Shown here piece after piece: positions 2,320 through 17,991 of a stretch of 64,000 bases of DNA (position 1 is the stretch's first letter; the number at the start of each line of letters is the position of its first letter). The stretch comes from Phycisphaerales bacterium. Lineage in GTDB: Bacteria; Planctomycetota; Phycisphaerae; Phycisphaerales; UBA1924. Under the pieces are notes generated by a model that was given only the letters and a program-made list of their open reading frames with translations, was not told the DNA's origin and made no database searches. The DNA lies in the NCBI GenBank assembly GCA_029260315.1, contig JAJDDM010000135.1:37510-101509 (forward strand), in the 5' to 3' direction. A program made the position numbers and the translations under genes.

Positions 2320-3684
2320 GAGGGCGTCTCGTACCCGCAGGCGTCTGTTCGCACTCTGGGAGGGGCGCTACGTGGCCCCGGTGCATGAGGGGGTCCGTCC
2401 GGTCGGGGCTGCCATCGGTAGGACGAGCTTCAAGCTCAGGGCTGCTATCGCAGTCCCCGGGACCGGGCGGGTTCGAGGAGTCGTGATCGGTGTTCTAAAG
2501 AGCGACTGCAGGGGGGCGGACGCGTCAGTGTGCGGCTCTGGTCACGCAAGGCTCCCAGACGCTGCCCGTCCTCCAGAGGTGGTGCAGCAGACACGCGAGC
2601 TTGCGAGCGACCGCGATGCGGGCCCTCGCCTTGGCGCGTTGAGAGCCCCCGCGGTTGAGTCGCTCGCCGAAGCGCCGCAGGTCGCAGTCCTGACCGAAAG
2701 GGCCCAGGATGTAGCTGGCGGCGTTGACCAGCAGTCGCCTCAAGAGCCGGTCCCCGCGTTTGCTGATGCGGAGTTGGGGCGTCTTGGACCCCGAGGCGTA
2801 CTGCCCGGGTGCGAGCCCGATGTAGTTGCCGACGGTGCGCGACGATGAGAAGCGGTCGGGAGTCTCGAGGGTCGCGGCAAACGCCAAGGCCAGCGTCGGT
2901 CCGACGCCGGGCACCTGGCGCAGCACTTCCGTTTCGGGATGATGCTCCGCCGAGACCTGCTCGATCTGCCGGTCGCAGCGCTTGATCTGCTCGGCGACCT
3001 GCTCGAGGACGGCGAGCACGGGAGCACACACCTCGCGCAGCGGGTCCGGGACATGCACGGCGGCACGTTTGTGGAAGCTCGCCGTCGAGCAGGCCGGGAC
3101 ACGCCCGCCAAACGACTTCACCTGCCCGCGCACCAGGTTCACGAGCTTGGTTCGCGTGCGGACAAGGTGGTCTCGGGCGTGCAACAGCGAGCGACTGACG
3201 CGACACATCTCGCCGCGCAGCTTCACCGGCCGCAGCAGCTCAGGATCCACACGACCGAGCCGAGCGAGCATCCGTGCGTCATTGCGATCGCTCTTCCGAC
3301 CGCTCTGCGAGATCAGTCGCAGCTCGCGAGGATTGGCGACGACCACTTCATGCCCCGCACCACGCACGAGCTCGGCGATCCAGTGCACATGGCCACAGGC
3401 TTCCACCACCACCCGACAAGGCGCCAGGCCATCCATGAGCTTCTGGAGGCCCGCTTGCGTCGTCGCCACCTCGCCTTCCTGCAGCCGCACACCGGCTGCG
3501 CTCACATGGCAGAAACTCGTCCGACGGTCGCCCACATCGAGGCCGACGGTCTCAGTGGCTCGGGGCACGGTGGTAGGCTGGGTCATGGCCGGTCTCCTCT
3601 GATCGCGATGGGGTGAGGTCAGTCCCTCCGATCATGCAGCCCCTCACGGGTGACTGCGCCGGGAGACCGGCCTTCTCACACCAT
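2320..3684 (-). mobile_element. IS110-family insertion sequence (bounds approximate)
   Basis: An IS110-type transposase gene (2525-3586) with about 200 bp of non-coding sequence on its 3' side and about 100 bp on its 5' side. IS110 elements lack terminal inverted repeats, so I cannot fix the ends by eye. The right limit is where the inverted repeat of the neighbouring IS1182-like element begins. IS110/IS1111 elements are known to encode a bridge RNA in a non-coding flank. Hairpin-forming sequence is present on both sides (for example an imperfect GGGGTGAGG / CCCCTCAC pair near 3610-3655, and GAGCTT/AAGCTC near 2428). Confidence 0.55.
2525..3586 (-). CDS. IS110-family DEDD transposase
   Basis: A 353-aa protein with the two IS110 parts. 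The N-terminal RuvC-like DEDD domain shows GLDVG (Asp17), VEACG (Glu62) and KSDRNDA (Asp100, Asp103). The C-terminal Transposase_20 region shows the helix-hairpin-helix stretch VPGVGPTLALA, the VGNYIGLAPGQYASG block and RISKRGDRLLRRLLVNAA. The length is normal and there is no frameshift, so it is probably intact. These enzymes recombine DNA through a Holliday-junction-like intermediate guided by a bridge RNA from the element's own flank. Confidence 0.92.
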   Translation of the reverse strand: MTQPTTVPRATETVGLDVGDRRTSFCHVSAAGVRLQEGEVATTQAGLQKLMDGLAPCRVVVEACGHVHWIAELVRGAGHEVVVANPRELRLISQSGRKSDRNDARMLARLGRVDPELLRPVKLRGEMCRVSRSLLHARDHLVRTRTKLVNLVRGQVKSFGGRVPACSTASFHKRAAVHVPDPLREVCAPVLAVLEQVAEQIKRCDRQIEQVSAEHHPETEVLRQVPGVGPTLALAFAATLETPDRFSSSRTVGNYIGLAPGQYASGSKTPQLRISKRGDRLLRRLLVNAASYILGPFGQDCDLRRFGERLNRGGSQRAKARARIAVARKLACLLHHLWRTGSVWEPCVTRAAH

Positions 3685-5148
3685 CCGTTGAAGAAGTGGT
3701 TCTTCGGGGCGAGTTCATGCGAGCACCCAGCGATATCCGCGTGAGCAGTCGGCGCTGGCGACATCGGCGATGCGCGGCGCGCAGCGACCGAGGAGGTCGA
3801 TGAGTCGGCTCCAGCACGCGATGAGGCGCTCCCACGCGGCCTCGAGGGCCGCGACCGCCCGCCGCGACAGCCCCTTCGGGGTGCCGACTCCGATCAGGCG
3901 CCGCATCATGAGCCCGAGGTTGAAGGCGGCGACGTGCACCAGGTAGCGCTTGGCGATGTTGTCGTGGCCTCGCAGATGCGTTCGTCGCATCGCTCCAGTT
4001 TCGAGGCAGTGGGCGAAGGAGCGTTCGACCAGTTCACCGCGGCGCTTGTGCAGGGCCTTGGCTTTCGCGCGCTGCTGCCGACGACGGTTGCCGTACACCG
4101 CGTCGCGCACGGCCTGCTGCCCGCGCCACCGGCGACGGGGACGCTTCGGCTCGGCGATGTAGGTCCGGATGTCCAGTTCGGTCAGCGTGGTGAGCACGTC
4201 GTTGCTGTGGTAGCCGCGGTCCGCCACGACCTCGGTCGCGGTCTCGCCCGTGGCCTGCTAGAGCTGGTCGTTGGCCTCCGCGAGCGTCTCGTACACGCTG
4301 CTCGTGTCGCCGCGGTCGGCGGGCTGGATCGTCACCGCGGCGATGGCGCCGCTGTCCAGGTCGACCGCGTGCTCGGCCTTGTGGGCCAGGTGCGTGCGGC
4401 CGTCCTTCATCTTCGTGATGCGGGCGTCCGGGTCGTCTGGGGACTCCCAGTCGTCGTTGCTGGCCTTGCCCTTGCGCCCCTTGTCGACGCGCTTTCGGTC
4501 CTCGCGCGTCGGTGTCTCGACGCCGCTCTCCTTGGCCAGTCCCTCCAGGAAGTCCGGGTAGCTCTCGCCCGTGTCGCGCCGCACGATGCTGCGCATCGCC
4601 GCGTTGGCTTCCATGGTCGTCGCGTCGATCCCCACGCGCTTGCCGGCGAGCAGCTTGTGCTCGGACAGCAGCGCCAGCACCCAGGCGAAGACCTCGCGGT
4701 GCGTCTCCAGGTCGAGCATCTGCCGGATGCGACACAGGCTGCTGTGGTCCGGCGTGCGCTCGGTCAGCGGCACGCCGAGGAAGCTCCGCAGCGAGAGGCT
4801 GTCGCGGCAGCGCCAAGCGATCCCGCGCTCGCTGTCCAGGCCCTCGAAATACCCGATCATCAGCATCCGGAAGTACACACCCGGCGGGATGCTCGGCCGG
4901 CCCATCCGCTCGGCGTAGAAAGGCCGGCACTGTTCCTCGACGAAGTCGTCGAAGCCGTGCTTGGTCAGCAGCGCGGACAGACGGTCGTAGAAAGCGTGGC
5001 CTGGCGCCGCGTCGATCCGATCAGCCGGCACGAACAACGCCTCCTGCTGCTCGCGCGCCTTGCGTCCCATCGACATCGTGGGGTCTCCGTGGTCGTCGGC
5101 TCCGTCCTACGTCATGAGGCGCGCGGCGCGGAGCACTTTTTCAACGGG
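3685..5148 (-). mobile_element. IS1182/IS5-like insertion sequence with terminal inverted repeats
   Basis: The left end reads CCGTTGAAGAAGTGG from 3685. The right end, read on the other strand from 5148, gives CCCGTTGAAAAAGTGC. After the leading C these match at 12 of 13 positions, so they are the terminal inverted repeats of one element of about 1.46 kb. The element contains a single DDE transposase gene on the minus strand that is interrupted by a stop codon. I see no target duplication (flanks ACCAT and GCTGC), so a later rearrangement at one end is possible. Confidence 0.75.
3715..5076 (-). pseudogene. DDE transposase interrupted by one in-frame TAG
   Basis: The N-terminal part (from ATG at 5076) has the InsH/DUF772-type domain with RPSIPPGVYFRMLMIGYFEGLDS and RTPDHSSLCRIRQ, followed by the catalytic block GIDATTMEANAA. 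Its frame is closed by TAG at 4258-4260 and then continues in the same frame with VADRGYHSND and the C-terminal region with KALHKRRGELVERSFAHC. A single nonsense change therefore separates two otherwise undamaged halves. This is either an inactivated transposase or one made only by readthrough. Confidence 0.85.
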
Positions 5149-10959: not shown

Positions 10960-12027
10960 TCAATAGCTGACTTTGAAGGTGGGGGAGTCCTCGGGCCGCG
11001 CGCGTCTACGGTCATAGAGCCGCGTCGTGCTGATGTTGGCGTGACCGAGCCACATCTGGACGTAGGCGATATCGGCGTTGTGCTCCAGGGCGTTCGTGGC
11101 GGCGGTGGTGCGCAGAGCGTGCAGGCATAACCCGTCCACGTAGACGCCGGCAGCCGTGGCGTAGTGCTTGACCATCTTGTAGATCCCGTCCCCAGTGATC
11201 GCCTCGTTCATCGTTCCGGTGCGGTTGTTCCGCACGGGACGGAACAGAGGGCGCTTGCGGTCCTCGTCATGACCCGCTTCCTGCAGGTAGGTGAGGATCG
11301 CGTCCATGGCGGCCGGGTGGGCGGGCACGTAGCGTGTCCTGGAGCCCTTGCCTTCGACGCGGAAGTGCATCACGCCGCGCCTCTCGGCGAGGCTGCCTAC
11401 CGTCAACGCCGCGAGCTCGCTGCGCCGCAGCGCGTGGAAGAGATACGTTGCGATGATCGCGCGATCGCGCTTCGCCTTCAGGTTTGAGCCTGAGGGTGCG
11501 CGCAGCAGCTTCTTGGCCTGCGCGTCGGACAGCGCCGGGGTCTTGCCCTCGTTGCTGTCCACCGCGGGTCGCTTCACGCCGGCGACCGGGTTGTGCTCAA
11601 CGGCGTTCTCGTTGCAGAGGTAGTCGAACAGCGAAGCGATGGCCGAGAGCTTCCGGCGGATCGTCGCCGGCGCTAGGCCCTGACCCTCGAGCAGACCGCG
11701 CCAGGCGATCAGGTGGGCACGTGTGACCTGGCGCAACTCATCGGGCGCCTCGATCCCGCAGAACGCGATGAAGGCCTCGACATCGCTATGGTAGGCCCGG
11801 CGAGTGTTCGGATTGTCGATGTTAGCGAGCCAGGTCAGTGCGGCCGGGACGTCCGAGAGTTGGTGGAACTGCTCGGCCGAGAGCAGCCTCGGCCCCGTCA
11901 GCGCCAGCTCGCCGTCGCGCGAAGCCCGTGTTTGCTCTCCCGCACTCGCCTTCGAGGGCAGAATGGGCACGTTGCGAGGCCCGTCGGTGCCGCTCCTATC
12001 GTTGTTGCTGTCGCCGCTTTTCAGCAT
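10960..12027 (-). CDS. Tyrosine recombinase / integrase (XerC/D-like)
   Basis: A 355-aa product. The N-terminal SAM-like core-binding domain (about residues 60-150) is followed by the catalytic domain: first Arg in [12 protein letters not shown], the HxxR box [20 protein letters not shown] and the nucleophile in RLYDRR. I place the start at ATG 12027, preceded by GAGAGGGGG, because longer frames would begin inside the promoter. A dif-like 28-bp site (12046-12073) overlaps the promoter, so the recombinase probably acts there and may repress its own transcription. A frameshifted paralogue lies at 1880-2245. Confidence 0.92.
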
Positions 12028-12045
12028 CCCCCTCTCGCTTCTTGA

Positions 12046-12073
12046 AGTATTGATAATGTATTTTATCAATATT
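12046..12073. repeat. dif-like recombination site upstream of integrase 1
   Basis: The left arm is AGTATTGATAA, the spacer TGTATT and the right arm TTATCAATATT; the arms are inverted repeats at 10 of 11 positions. Arm length, the 6-bp spacer and the ATAA...TTAT inner edges are those of Xer dif sites (the E. coli dif spacer is TGTATA). A second site with the same inner arms lies at 36232-36259 beside the other integrase. Confidence 0.7.
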
Positions 12074-12078
12074 GACAA
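12050..12078 (-). promoter_or_regulatory. Promoter of integrase 1, overlapping the dif-like site
   Basis: On the minus strand TTGTCA (12078-12073) and TATCAA (12055-12050) are 17 bp apart, with the start codon about 23 bp further on. The -10 box lies inside the left arm of the recombination site, so binding of the recombinase would block its own promoter. Confidence 0.5.
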
Positions 12079-13488: not shown

Positions 13489-13822
13489 GGCCGTGGACAT
13501 GAAGCTGACGGACATCGACGAGCTCCTCCGCGACGAGGATGACCTGCAAGGGAAGAGCGAGGCTCCCGAGCCGCTGCCAAAGGTCGCCAAGCGGCGCATC
13601 CCGAAGCCGACGTCGCCCAAGCCTGAGCCCAGCCCCGCCGCCGAAACGAAGTACAAGCAACTGAGCTTCTACGTGTCGCGCGAAGAGTACTTCGCCCTTC
13701 GCACCGCGAGTGTCGACCGGGAGGGCCGAGGCAAAGAGCCTTTCGGCCACGAGAAGATGGCTCGTGCGGCGCTCCGCGCCTGGCTCTCAGCCCGGGGGTA
13801 TCTCGACAAGAAGGCGGCGTGA
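13439..13822 (+). CDS. Small ParB-like/partition partner or copy-control protein
   Basis: A 127-aa protein that overlaps the end of parA and the first bases of repA (GTGA overlap). Residues 1-65 are charged and Pro/Lys-rich; the last 65 (KQLSFYVSREEYFALRTASV ... ALRAWLSARGYL) look like a ribbon-helix-helix DNA-binding domain. The place between parA and repA is typical for the centromere-binding partner of a short ParA. No sequence family is certain. Confidence 0.6.
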   Translation: MEETRPSLAARAGVQLEAVDMKLTDIDELLRDEDDLQGKSEAPEPLPKVAKRRIPKPTSPKPEPSPAAETKYKQLSFYVSREEYFALRTASVDREGRGKEPFGHEKMARAALRAWLSARGYLDKKAA

Positions 13823-14727
13823 CGAAGGAGCTCACCCCGAGAGAAGAGCGCTTGGTGGCTGCCGCCACCGACATCCGATCGCGGCCACCAGGCCCGAAAG
13901 AGACAGCGTTCCTGACCCGCTTCCTCGTCCAGGCAACGCTCCCGCATCGCCAGCCCAAGGGCAACCCATCCGAGTGGTACCGGGTGAACGGCCACTACAC
14001 GCTGGCCATCCGCCCTGGGTTCACGCAGGACCGCAAAACCCGCGACCGCACCTGGCTCGGCTACCCGTCGGGGTCGATTCCAAGGCTGCTGATGTTCTGG
14101 ACGACGACGGAGGCTCTGCGCACGGGCTCCCGGAAGCTCCACATGGGGAGCAGCCTGAGCGAGTTCATGCGAGAGCTGGGGCTCAATCCTCGAAACGGCC
14201 GCGGCGAGCGCTCCGACGCGCACCGCCTGCGCCTGCAGATGGAGCGGCTCTTTCGGGCCACGATCAGCTTCGAGTACGCCGACAACACCACCCGGCGCTG
14301 GTGCGACATGCAGGTGGCCCCCGAAGGAGAGCTCTGGTGGGACCCACGGCGCCCCGACGAGGTCACGCTCTGGGACAGCTGGCTCCTGCTCGGCGAACGC
14401 TTCTACGAAGCCATCGTGGGTGCTCCCATCCCGCTCGATGTGCGCGCGCTCCGGGAGCTCAAGAGCTCGCCCCTGGCTCTCGACCTCTACGCCTGGCTCA
14501 CCTACAAGACCTACCAGGTGAGCAAGACCGACCGGCCCCAGCGAGTGTCGTGGAACCAGCTACTTGCACAGCTCGGAGCCGACTACAGCTCGCCGAAGGA
14601 TTTCGCAAAGAAGGCCCGTCATGCCCTGCAGCGCATTCGCCCGGTCTACCCCGGGCTGTCCCTTCGGGACTTCCCCGGAGGGCTCATCGTCCGGCCCGGA
14701 CGAACCGCCATCCCCAACGCCCGGTAA
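13819..14727 (+). CDS. repA: Plasmid replication initiator RepA (RepA_C family)
   Basis: A 302-aa protein matching the plasmid-encoded RepA family: WLGYPSGSIPRLLMFWTTTEAL, then ELGLxxRNGRGER with HRLRLQMERLFRATISFEY, and the C-terminal PLDVRALRELKSSPLALDLYAWLTYKTYQ winged-helix block, followed by VSWNQLLAQLGADYSS. The GTG start overlaps the previous stop. Such proteins bind iterons and recruit DnaA/DnaB. The downstream DnaA box and iteron-like repeats support an iteron-controlled replicon. It is full length and undamaged, so the replicon may still be functional. Confidence 0.85.
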   Translation: MTKELTPREERLVAAATDIRSRPPGPKETAFLTRFLVQATLPHRQPKGNPSEWYRVNGHYTLAIRPGFTQDRKTRDRTWLGYPSGSIPRLLMFWTTTEALRTGSRKLHMGSSLSEFMRELGLNPRNGRGERSDAHRLRLQMERLFRATISFEYADNTTRRWCDMQVAPEGELWWDPRRPDEVTLWDSWLLLGERFYEAIVGAPIPLDVRALRELKSSPLALDLYAWLTYKTYQVSKTDRPQRVSWNQLLAQLGADYSSPKDFAKKARHALQRIRPVYPGLSLRDFPGGLIVRPGRTAIPNAR

Positions 14728-14773: not shown

Positions 14774-14930
14774 TGTGGATAACCCTGTGGAAGAGCAGCA
14801 TTCCGCTGAGATGAAACGGTCCACCTCGGAGGCCCCGTGAAGCCGGGCACTTGCGGGAGCGCTGAGACGAAATGGTCCCCCGACTGAGATGAAATGGTCC
14901 CCCCTTCCTATAGATACCTATAGAAGATCC
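14774..14930. other. oriV: Probable replication origin: DnaA box plus three iterons
   Basis: TGTGGATAA at 14774-14782 is the exact complement of a consensus DnaA box. Three near-identical repeats of the form TGAGAYGAAAYGGTCC start at 14807, 14863 and 14885; the last two are spaced 22 bp (two helical turns). An A/T-richer piece with a duplicated CCTATAGA follows (14907-14924). The order initiator gene, DnaA box, iterons, easily melted DNA is that of iteron plasmids. Confidence 0.7.
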
Positions 14931-15208
14931 TGTAGTAAGGGCTGTGGGAAGCGGGAGAGAGCTTCGCGCGTCTCGGGAAGGCCAAGCCGAGAATGCGTGG
15001 AGAGGTGGGTGGAGAATCTCTCTGTCCGGGAAACCCTGACCGTGATAGGTGAGCCTCTTGTAGGCCGATGGGTCTACCCGTGCTCGGTGGATGCCAGACA
15101 GGCACCGCCTTGCACCTTTGAGATGGGACAGCAGCACCCAGGAAGTCTGGCTTACCGGCCAGGTGAAGGGCTGCGGGTTCACCACCCGCAACTGCCGCTG
15201 GACCCGTA

Positions 15209-15243
15209 GAGCCGGATGCCGCGAGAGTGGCTTGTCCGTGCTC
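15209..15243 (+). ncRNA. Group II intron domain V-like hairpin
   Basis: A 35-nt hairpin. The 5' strand GAGCCGGAUG pairs with the 3' strand UGUCCG-U-GCUC (one extra U); a 2-nt CU bulge follows on the 3' side, then a 4-bp CCGC/GUGG helix closed by GAGA. This is the domain V plan: 10-bp lower helix starting G-AGC, two-base bulge, 4-bp upper helix, GNRA loop. The segment after it (15244-15276) can form an 8-bp stem like domain VI but without a clear bulged A. No intron-encoded reverse transcriptase is present. Confidence 0.4.
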
Positions 15244-16602
15244 GAGGGAGGCTTGTCGGAGTAACCCTTTCTCACCGTCCTCCGCTGTTCCCGTAAGGCC
15301 GCATAAGGAGTTTCCTGCGGCAGGGTGTTTGGACAGATAAAGACCAATCCCGACATTCGATCCCATAGCCAAGTGCCTTGAAGAAGGGCGACCGGGAAAG
15401 ACCTGGAAGGCGGCTCGAGAGAGCAACCGACCAGGCTGTGATGGTTGAAGGTGGTGAGTGGGGGAGGTCCCCCACGAATCCCCCTGCGGGGTCAGGACCG
15501 AAGCTCTCTTGGAAGAGCAAGATCGGGTGGAAGACTCGTGAGGTTCGGGCAACGCAAGCCGGCGTCGGGAGTGGCGAGGTCCGCAAGGGCCCGTCCCGGG
15601 TGATGACGACACTCGGGTATCGCGCTACAAAGGAGGCTCTGGTCTCCCCAAAACGCGAACGCGAAGAGCTCAACGATGAAAGGCCCGCAAGGGCTTGCCG
15701 GTCAGCACCATCGGAGACGGTGCCGAACCGCGAAAAGCGGTATGCGATGGGTAAGGGGATGCTTCTTGCTTCGATCCCCCGAAATCGAGGGCCAGTCTGG
15801 CTCTCGTAAACGACGTCTTGGGCGGGAGCCTTCGACGTACGCATGACGCCTGAGGGGTCTCCCCTCTAGCGACGTGACCGATGGAGTGACAACCAGCACT
15901 AACCGGGGAACCACGGCAGCAGCCGGTGTGGTGACCGGTGCCCAGAGACGTCTTCTGGGTGCTTGAAACGCTGTCGTGGGGGAGTAGGCCCCAACTAGAA
16001 GCGGGCCCTCGATGGACGAGGGCTCGGCGGTGACTGGAGGGAAGCCTCCAGCGGGAGCAGTCTTGCTCCCGTGCGGCAAGGCCGTCGCATCCCGTTCGTG
16101 TGCCAGCGGGTGGTGCCGGGCACGTGGAACGACGACGAAAGGGGTGACGGGTCGTAGGCCCGTCTCAAAGGTGCACTGACGAGAGGAGGGGAGACTCTCC
16201 TCCCGTCAGCGCGAAAGAACTCGCGGTCGATGCCGCGAGAGAAGAAGGGCTCTGGCGAGCTTGTGTTCTCTCGCATCACGCGTCCCGAGTACGGAGGAGG
16301 TTACCACCAGAGGCCCGGAGCGTGGGGGGGACCCACGTCTCAGAGCGGTCTCTGGTGAAGAGGTTTGCGCAACACCTATGGAGTTGCGCAACAGCAACAT
16401 GCTGAAGCAGGTCGCGCGTGAACTTGCAAAGCAGGAAAGGAGGGCGAGAAGTGCGTTGTGGGGGCCTGTGAGCCACGTGGTGGCACGATCTGATGCCGAC
16501 TGCGGGTCTGGGTCCCCTGGAGACAGCCTCGGGGTCGTGAGGAGCTCTGTGCTCCTTGCGGCCTCGAGGTGGCTCTCATGCTGGAGAGAGGTTGCGGCGA
16601 AA

Positions 16603-16627
16603 GGGAGCCCGCCGAAAAGAGGCTCCC
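16603..16627 (+). terminator. Strong hairpin at the 3' end of the structured RNA
   Basis: GGGAGCC and GGCTCCC pair perfectly around an 11-nt A-rich loop, 39 bp before the next start codon. It could terminate or cap the structured RNA; no T-run follows, so termination would be atypical. Confidence 0.45.
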
Positions 16628-16665
16628 ACCATCACGGAGGGGGATGAGCAAGGACGAGGGCGAAG

Positions 16666-17562: not shown

Positions 17563-17991
17563 ATGGGCCGCATCATCGCTTCCGTCACCGTTGAGAACCT
17601 CCACCAGGAAGGCGCATCGTTTCGCTGCGATGCCTTGGTCGACACCGGCGCGGCGTTTCTTGTGCTGCCGAACGCCTGGCGAGAGCGCCTCGGGAAGCTC
17701 GACCTATCTCGGAAGGTGGAGATCGAGTTAGGCGACCAAAGCGTCCGATCGGGCGAGGTCTGTGGCCCCGTGAAGATTCAGATCGAAGGCTTCGACGCCT
17801 TCTCGGGAGAGGTGCTCTTCATCGACATGGAACCGGCCGGAGGGCGGTATGACCCGCTGCTTGGATACGTTCCACTCGAGCAGAGCCAGGTCGCCGTGGA
17901 CATGGTGGGACACCGCTTGGTGCCCGTGCGCCGCGTGGATCTCAAAGTGGTAGTGCTTGAAGGGGCCGATTTCACTGGCTCGACCCCATAG
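17563..17991 (+). CDS. Retropepsin-like aspartyl protease domain protein
   Basis: A 142-aa single-domain protein from ATG 17563. The catalytic motif is DALVDTGAAFLVLP (Asp-Thr-Gly about residue 25), followed by a flap region and the second conserved stretch RYDPLLGYVPLEQ (ILG-like Leu-Leu-Gly). These are the landmarks of the bacterial clan AA retropepsin-like proteases, which work as dimers. There is no signal or transmembrane segment. It lies downstream of the small membrane protein by 50 bp. Substrate unknown. Confidence 0.8.
   Translation: MGRIIASVTVENLHQEGASFRCDALVDTGAAFLVLPNAWRERLGKLDLSRKVEIELGDQSVRSGEVCGPVKIQIEGFDAFSGEVLFIDMEPAGGRYDPLLGYVPLEQSQVAVDMVGHRLVPVRRVDLKVVVLEGADFTGSTP

Follow-up and report, generated by a model that had tools for sequence, protein, structure and literature searches.

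In a 64,000-nt stretch of DNA from a Phycisphaerales bacterium (assembly GCA_029260315.1, contig JAJDDM010000135.1; hereafter the window), we examined a hairpin-rich region that lies between a plasmid replication origin and a gene encoding a relative of the Thermus protein AcpG. Our best explanation, to which we give a probability of about 0.8, is that positions 15172-16148 form a circularly permuted (CP) group II RNA that is predicted to back-splice, and that the adjacent gene encodes a protein that is likely a dead maturase relative and would help the RNA to fold. We observed the permuted domain order, covariation, the pairing of exon-binding site 1 (EBS1) with intron-binding site 1 (IBS1), a pseudoknot between hairpin P2 and domain 2 (D2), linkage of the RNA with the gene, and the predicted protein fold. 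The RNA belongs to a known class, the CP group II ribozymes or 'T-large' RNAs (Roth et al., 2021; PMC8637638), in hosts that the text of that paper does not name; Thermus, Firmicutes and Proteobacteria appear there, whereas the loci described here come from Planctomycetota, Verrucomicrobia, Cyanobacteria and others.

The core runs P2, D5, D6, 3' splice site, 19 nt of linker, 5' splice site, D1, D2 and D3, all on the same strand (Table 1), and does not have the canonical order D1-D2-D3-D4-D5-D6. D5 is the catalytic domain of group II introns, and in the window it has the features of its class, namely AGC at the base, five pairs up to a 2-nt bulge, and a tetraloop. The linker between the reversed splice sites (NU ... 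GGGCG) is inside the class range of 15-86 nt. A15360 is a bulged A and the seventh nucleotide from the 3' splice site; all 32 aligned sequences have the same nucleotide in its column (A97 of the first row) and, by analogy, it is the predicted branch point and nucleophile. D6 in the window has a long insertion. The sequence AGUAAUC, or a close variant, flanks the internal loop of D6 (window 15246-15366) on both sides in many siblings. The domain order (D5-D6-D1-D2-D3-D4), the reversed splice sites (NU, GGGCG), the short linker, the EBS1-IBS1 and P2-D2 pairings and the location near a plasmid origin are the same as in the CP group II ribozymes described in the text of PMC8637638, which describes the P2-D2 pseudoknot as found in CP group II RNAs alone and the P1-3' end and D3-D1 pseudoknots as more restricted.

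Table 1. Positions of the features of the RNA-protein unit and of the adjoining replication region in the window
Feature	Position	Strand	Remark
RepA-type plasmid replication initiator gene (RepA_C)	13819-14727	+	PF04796, E 8.9e-30
Three 20-nt iterons	14806-14903	+	3' of the RepA_C gene
P2 hairpin, loop TCACC(A) complementary to D2 loop	15172-15190	+	Exact complement of 15927-15934; covaries across loci
D5, AGC near base, GAGA tetraloop, 2-nt UU bulge	15208-15243	+	
D6, predicted branch-point A15360, predicted 3' splice site after 15366	15246-15366	+	
Linker AGCCAAGTGCCTTGAAGAA, 19 nt, between reversed splice sites	15367-15385	+	Predicted RNA circle; last six nt are IBS1
Predicted 5' splice site (GGGCG) and D1	15386-15906	+	Basal helix 15392-15395/15903-15906
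EBS1 hairpin in D1	15754-15780	+	EBS1 is 15767-15772 (TGCTTC), 5/6 pairs with IBS1
D2	15911-15979	+	Loop 15927-15934 pairs with P2
D3	15984-16148	+	Helix 15984-15992/16141-16148; named by position
Variable D4-position region and leader of downstream gene	16149-16665	+	Conservation falls after about 16150
H-type pseudoknot CGGCG-AAA-GGGAGCC-CGCCG-AAAAGA-GGCTCCC	16595-16627	+	Ends 38 nt before the start codon; variant of the GGCTT.../GCC element
acpG-like gene, 225 aa	16666-17343	+	Likely degenerate group II maturase

Comparison with related loci supports these pairings. Pattern matching located D5, D6, the 3' site, the short linker and the 5' site in 51 of 71 loci; some of these picks are wrong (e.g. 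the D5 of locus L059 and the 5' sites of L069 and L070) and are corrected by the RNA model built here, R1. In the D5/D6 alignment (A7, 32 sequences) 99.2% of the cells are paired and two-sided changes occur in 18 of the 23 pairs, all of which are standard in the window. D1-D3 have 148 consensus pairs in 13 sequences, 97 of them with two-sided changes. Covariation links the EBS1 loop (GCTTCT-NNNTTC) to the six nucleotides preceding the 5' site. At the last three positions of EBS1-IBS1, 85/120 were paired compared with 50.1 ± 5.4 after shuffling (0/20,000) in 40 of the 71 loci, the other 31 having either no 5' site with an EBS candidate or no clear EBS hairpin; with duplicates removed (32 loci) the values were 66/96 and 39.0 ± 4.9 (0/20,000). 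Of the 45 places tested, 29 have a P2 hairpin with a sequence exactly complementary to the D2 loop, compared with 9.6 ± 2.5 after shuffling (0/20,000); the test omits the 34 of 79 places without a match to the D2 motif, and the motif itself constrains the variable positions. The combinations found were CATCA/TGATG (10), TACCA/TGGTA (10), CACCA/TGGTG (7) and TATCA/TGATA (2); of the remaining places, 4 have a mismatched combination and 12 have no such P2 motif. In a DNA search of 101 genomes, the D5-like part preceded the other conserved block by about 0.4 kb in all 7 places that matched both.

As a control we used the CP RNA of Polaromonas plasmid pPNAP05, for which activity and a circle of 32 nt have been reported (PMC8637638). 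R1, which was built without the Polaromonas sequence, recovers this RNA (E 4.3e-6, 34.2 bits), and the splice rule used for the window gives a circle of 32 nt when applied to Polaromonas, which is the published length. The last six linker nucleotides have an exact complement 344 nt past the 5' site, although a single 6-mer within 700 nt may be due to chance. R1 misses the Thermus pTT8 RNA. In the loci with an acpG-like gene, R1 scores range from 41.5 to 103.6 bits; the window scores 78.2 bits, which is among the lower values, smaller ones being confined to L092, L085 (cut by the locus end), L031, L055 and L030. This score, the long insertion in D6 and the pairing of only five of the six EBS1-IBS1 positions would fit a decayed CP group II copy that has lost splicing. 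We consider such decay improbable given that the 23 listed D5/D6 pairs are all standard, that P2 and D2 are exact complements and that the downstream gene is an intact open reading frame (ORF).

Of 3877 candidate relatives of this ORF, 1899 reach E 1e-3 or better, and no Pfam domains were found in the ORF itself or in the 120 relatives listed. A scan of genome contigs yielded 140 relatives, and 80 loci were kept. Most are from Planctomycetota; others come from Thiocystis violacea DSM 208 and from bins of Verrucomicrobia, Acidobacteria, Nitrospira, Nitrospinaceae, Fimbriimonadaceae and Thermoleophilia. We supplemented these loci with plasmids from Planctomycetes bacterium K2D, Calothrix and Leptolyngbya boryana. 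Some taxon labels of bins may be misassigned and named strains are the safer basis for host range. The genome of the window is itself planctomycete, its RpoB piece showing 77% identity to a Phycisphaeraceae bin, the nearest among 13 genomes compared. Named strains with RNA-protein loci include Tautonia sociabilis GM2012, Thiocystis violacea DSM 208, Calothrix sp. NIES-4101 and Leptolyngbya boryana.

The linkage of RNA and ORF was seen from both directions. Among loci with at least 1498 nt upstream of the ORF (13 of the 80 are shorter and were excluded), R1 has a same-strand match 5' of the ORF in 63 of 67, most often at a distance of 1.0-2.2 kb. Of these 67 loci, 28 had helped to build R1, and 35 of the other 39 match it. 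The match is absent in L026, L028, L035 and L078, lies about 3.0 kb before the ORF in L054, and is cut by the locus end in L085. Starting from the RNA, R1 finds 16 places in 13 genomes among 150 relatives. With the window excluded, a match to the AcpG profile follows 0.8-1.4 kb downstream on the same strand in 13 of 15, and the other two end at a contig edge, so that all 13 testable loci have the ORF after the RNA. The genome of the window itself has a second, diverged CP group II RNA with an AcpG-like gene (contig 191; L166 2860-2954). By contrast, in the text of PMC8637638 many CP group II RNAs are without an AcpG gene and its orientation is variable, as in T. thermophilus, where acpG is divergent from the RNA. 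The unit of permuted ribozyme, conserved leader and dead maturase-like protein is a variant of the class in which the protein is nearly always present. Its acpG occupies the place that the intron's own protein gene has in the unpermuted circle, after D3 and before D5.

L157 (G014; 3500-3757) has an R1-matched RNA that is followed by only the C-terminal part of AcpG, and this gene is possibly decaying. L024 (Calothrix plasmid5) has two R1 matches, at 637-740 and 2788-2882, about 2.1 kb apart, and its sole tblastn match to AcpG sits after the second. L039, L044 and L064 are three AcpG-CP units in records of one genome (isolate SCN18_30_10_14_R2_B_71_11), which thus has multiple copies.

From profile comparison, the window protein is a remote relative of Thermus AcpG (TTHC007). 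Profile similarity was 84.8-86.6%, with E 4.5e-6 to 6.5e-6 as reckoned for a single comparison, whereas BLASTP showed no similarity of Thermus AcpG to the window ORF or its K2D homologue; profiles alone detect it. The models of the two proteins have a similar order of helices and strands, and both proteins are encoded beside a CP group II RNA. A profile search of Protein Data Bank sequences had a best E of 0.4, and Pfam and NCBIfam searches on 82 members returned scattered weak matches only, each in at most 6 members, which we read as chance. AlphaFold models of the two families, made from separate alignments, were most similar to group II intron maturases. For both families, rank 1 in Foldseek (350,542 chains) was the protein of a group II intron ribonucleoprotein (RNP), and group II reverse transcriptases (RTs) top the 1000 chains listed by VIA. 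The chains at VIA ranks 1-31 for the window protein are RTs or RT-related chains (AbiA, Prp8, telomerase). The predicted palm and thumb fold covers residues 1-208 of the window protein, and the order of elements fits an RT palm and thumb. The likeness to group II maturases (e.g. 8t2r, 6me0, 8fli) consists of this fold, as far as the models predict it, and of a gene after D3, which is the D4 position. The maturases differ in length, with chains of 388-458 residues against 225 aa here, and 8t2r is aligned from about residue 100 onward, with nothing in the window protein matched to its N-terminal part. The RT-like domain of Prp8 matched the window protein less well than the group II maturases did.

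Two results weigh against our interpretation. One is that R1 scores canonical introns about as high as the Polaromonas RNA. At E 1 or better it matches 16 of 30 group II RT loci from the phylum of the window, and its scores there span 15.9-37.1 bits, compared with 34.2 bits for Polaromonas. CP and canonical RNAs are told apart by domain order and splice sites and not by score. An Rfam scan covered 20 of the group II RT loci, and all 7 that had both an R1 match and a hit to a D1-D4 family were in canonical order, with D1-D4 upstream and D5-D6 downstream of the RT match. That the window has a canonical group II intron, or fragments of one, put in permuted order by chance insertion is therefore very improbable; the Rfam label of its D5-D6 part, Intron_gpII, would suit such an intron, but sibling loci repeat the permuted order and the P2-D2 pseudoknot is a CP feature.

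The other result is that the window family had no significant similarity to 25 group II RTs in hhalign (P 0.065). Its score was 21.8, with up to 24.6 in 60 shuffled profiles, in a run that gave errors when merging output alignments but still wrote the scores; the score of the merged profile was reached by 1 of 100 shuffles. The Thermus family matched group II RTs over 38 columns at its N-terminus, which was not significant either. Because the sequence profiles are not significant, the maturase reading rests on predicted structure. The best local profile match of the window family, also not significant, is in the expected register, from the YADD hairpin via RT7 to the thumb. There the AcpG hairpin QYLR-xxR-FFVLLA falls on the RT hairpin VRYADDFVVL, and the first catalytic D position of YADD is R in 74 of 82 members and D in 1 of 82, in a register that itself comes from a non-significant alignment. 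Judged from these sequences, the YADD motif is gone from the AcpG-like family. The structure predictions suggest that AcpG is likely a degenerate, catalytically dead group II maturase. It is unlikely that AcpG is instead an unrelated small protein, merely resembling an RT palm and thumb, that serves the plasmid or regulates the RNA. Such a protein would fit poorly with two separately modelled families that both give a group II intron RNP protein at Foldseek rank 1, with the RTs that top the VIA lists, or with a local profile match that runs in register from the YADD hairpin to the thumb.

The text of PMC8637638 states that AcpG has no known homology and that genes for intron-encoded proteins were never observed in or near CP RNAs. 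In our literature search AcpG together with a group II intron, or TTHC007, was found only in PMC8637638, and no paper joined circularly permuted group II intron, reverse transcriptase and planctomycetes. The AcpG-like protein, with its likely maturase origin, is the new element that our analysis brings to the reading of this class.

The region upstream of acpG divides into the core of about 980 nt, which is conserved, and a leader in which conservation is poor. The leader has the lowest folding z-scores of the hairpin-rich region and a nested unit of helices at 16306-16356. It also has a conserved pseudoknot before the gene, which sets these loci apart from the CP group II ribozymes in the text of PMC8637638. 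This element is of the H-type, with a GGC/GCC stem, a U-rich first loop and a last loop ending in A. The signature GGC-UU(n)-[7-10 bp]-GCC-(n)A-[stem] occurs in 60 of 95 loci, 46-121 nt before the start of the ORF match, compared with 1 of 4750 shuffled leaders and 31 of 6038 whole-locus tiles, the tiles including true copies. The signature misses 35 of the 95 loci including the window, the variant of which was found by a looser search alone; this search, at a score of at least 11, finds the element in 71/95 loci and in 12/95 shuffled ones. The stems have 47 distinct sequences, although the searches require pairing and this diversity is no independent test of covariation. Rfam had no family covering the pseudoknot at the gathering threshold (16 loci). 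Maturase genes in D4 have a leader, and by analogy with it the pseudoknot is likely an AcpG site or operator.

The mechanism that we propose follows that of published CP group II RNAs: the 2' oxygen of A15360 would attack the 5' splice site before G15386, and the freed 3' end of the linker would then attack the 3' splice site after U15366. A 19-nt RNA circle would be released and a branched RNA left. From its fold and position, AcpG may bind D1 and the leader at the D4 position as a maturase does, with the pseudoknot before its start codon as a binding or regulatory site. The branched RNA and AcpG could then persist as an open-ended RNP that recognises nucleic acids via EBS1, like an excised lariat RNP; such an EBS-guided branched RNP as the biological output is the least certain part of the scheme and we hold it with low confidence. 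Prp8 is a huge multidomain protein of the spliceosome. A bolder reading, for which we see even chances, is that AcpG is a miniaturised dead maturase that has become a pure RNA scaffold of permuted ribozymes, a bacterial parallel to Prp8, and holds the RNA via a triple-helix-like pseudoknot upstream of the acpG start codon. On this view the unit would be a domesticated retroelement that has given up reverse transcription and mobility and keeps an RNA-guided branched RNP, in at least five phyla.

An initial annotation, made from the DNA letters, had read positions 14943-16640 as a run of perfect hairpins and a candidate for a new, giant non-coding RNA on a plasmid replicon. The hairpin run was confirmed, with 50 hairpins of at least 5 bp compared with 37.9 ± 3.6 in dinucleotide shuffles (0/200 as high), and no clear excess in the neighbouring genes repA (18 compared with 16.0 ± 2.4) and acpG (16 compared with 18.0 ± 2.3). 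Local folding energy is low, with a mean z of -2.53 on the plus strand and -2.57 on the minus strand. Because these values are similar, energy alone does not single out the plus strand, but comparative evidence does. The results also agree with the gene-free stretch that it described. Of the 13 ORFs listed over the region, the 7 tested had no Pfam match, and no reading frame is conserved in D1-D3, where 55 of 253 indels are multiples of three (alignment columns 1-880, 12 relatives). Strong covariation among homologues likewise upheld the view of the RNA as large, structured and non-coding, and the replicon is of plasmid type. The new, unmatched giant class did not stand. Rfam at the gathering threshold and ARAGORN gave no match in the window, but cmscan in E-value mode placed Intron_gpII at 15207-15366 with E 5.9e-4, its 32.2 bits falling short of the cut-off of 40. 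The equivalent position passes the Rfam cut-off in 9 of 16 related loci scanned, with Thermus pTT8 among the seven below it; the annotation had named in advance a confident Rfam hit to a known class as evidence against itself. Nor is the size unusual, the core of about 980 nt being close to the average of about 900 nt given for CP group II RNAs in the text of PMC8637638. A giant class unrelated to introns would agree with the missing Rfam match at the gathering threshold and disagree with the poor conservation beyond about 16150. We rejected it, as next to impossible, mainly on the D5/D6 covariation, the P2-D2 pairing, the Rfam matches in relatives and the recovery of Polaromonas with its 32-nt circle.

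The RepA_C gene and then the three iterons lie 5' of the hairpin-rich region, and a tyrosine recombinase gene (10960-12078, minus strand; PF00589, E 1.8e-22) is 5' of the replication genes. Just 3' of the RNA-gene unit, an ORF on the plus strand (17563-17988) matches an aspartyl protease family (PF13650, E 1.6e-5) barely above the cut-off, at 26.0 compared with 24.3 bits. The Polaromonas plasmid with the tested CP RNA (L169, 11708-13754, minus strand) has ParA, a small ORF and TrfA, which is the parA, small ORF, repA order of the window; its RNA sits elsewhere on the plasmid.

CP group II ribozymes make RNA circles in vitro, and in the text of PMC8637638 they have no known role and AcpG has no reported homology or function. 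If AcpG is a dead maturase, a likely job for it and predictions follow, namely RNA binding and splicing at lower Mg2+, and the class would be a domesticated group II retroelement and not a stray rearrangement. The linkage of the two (63/67 loci from the ORF and 13/13 testable loci from the RNA) opens both to joint study in named strains.
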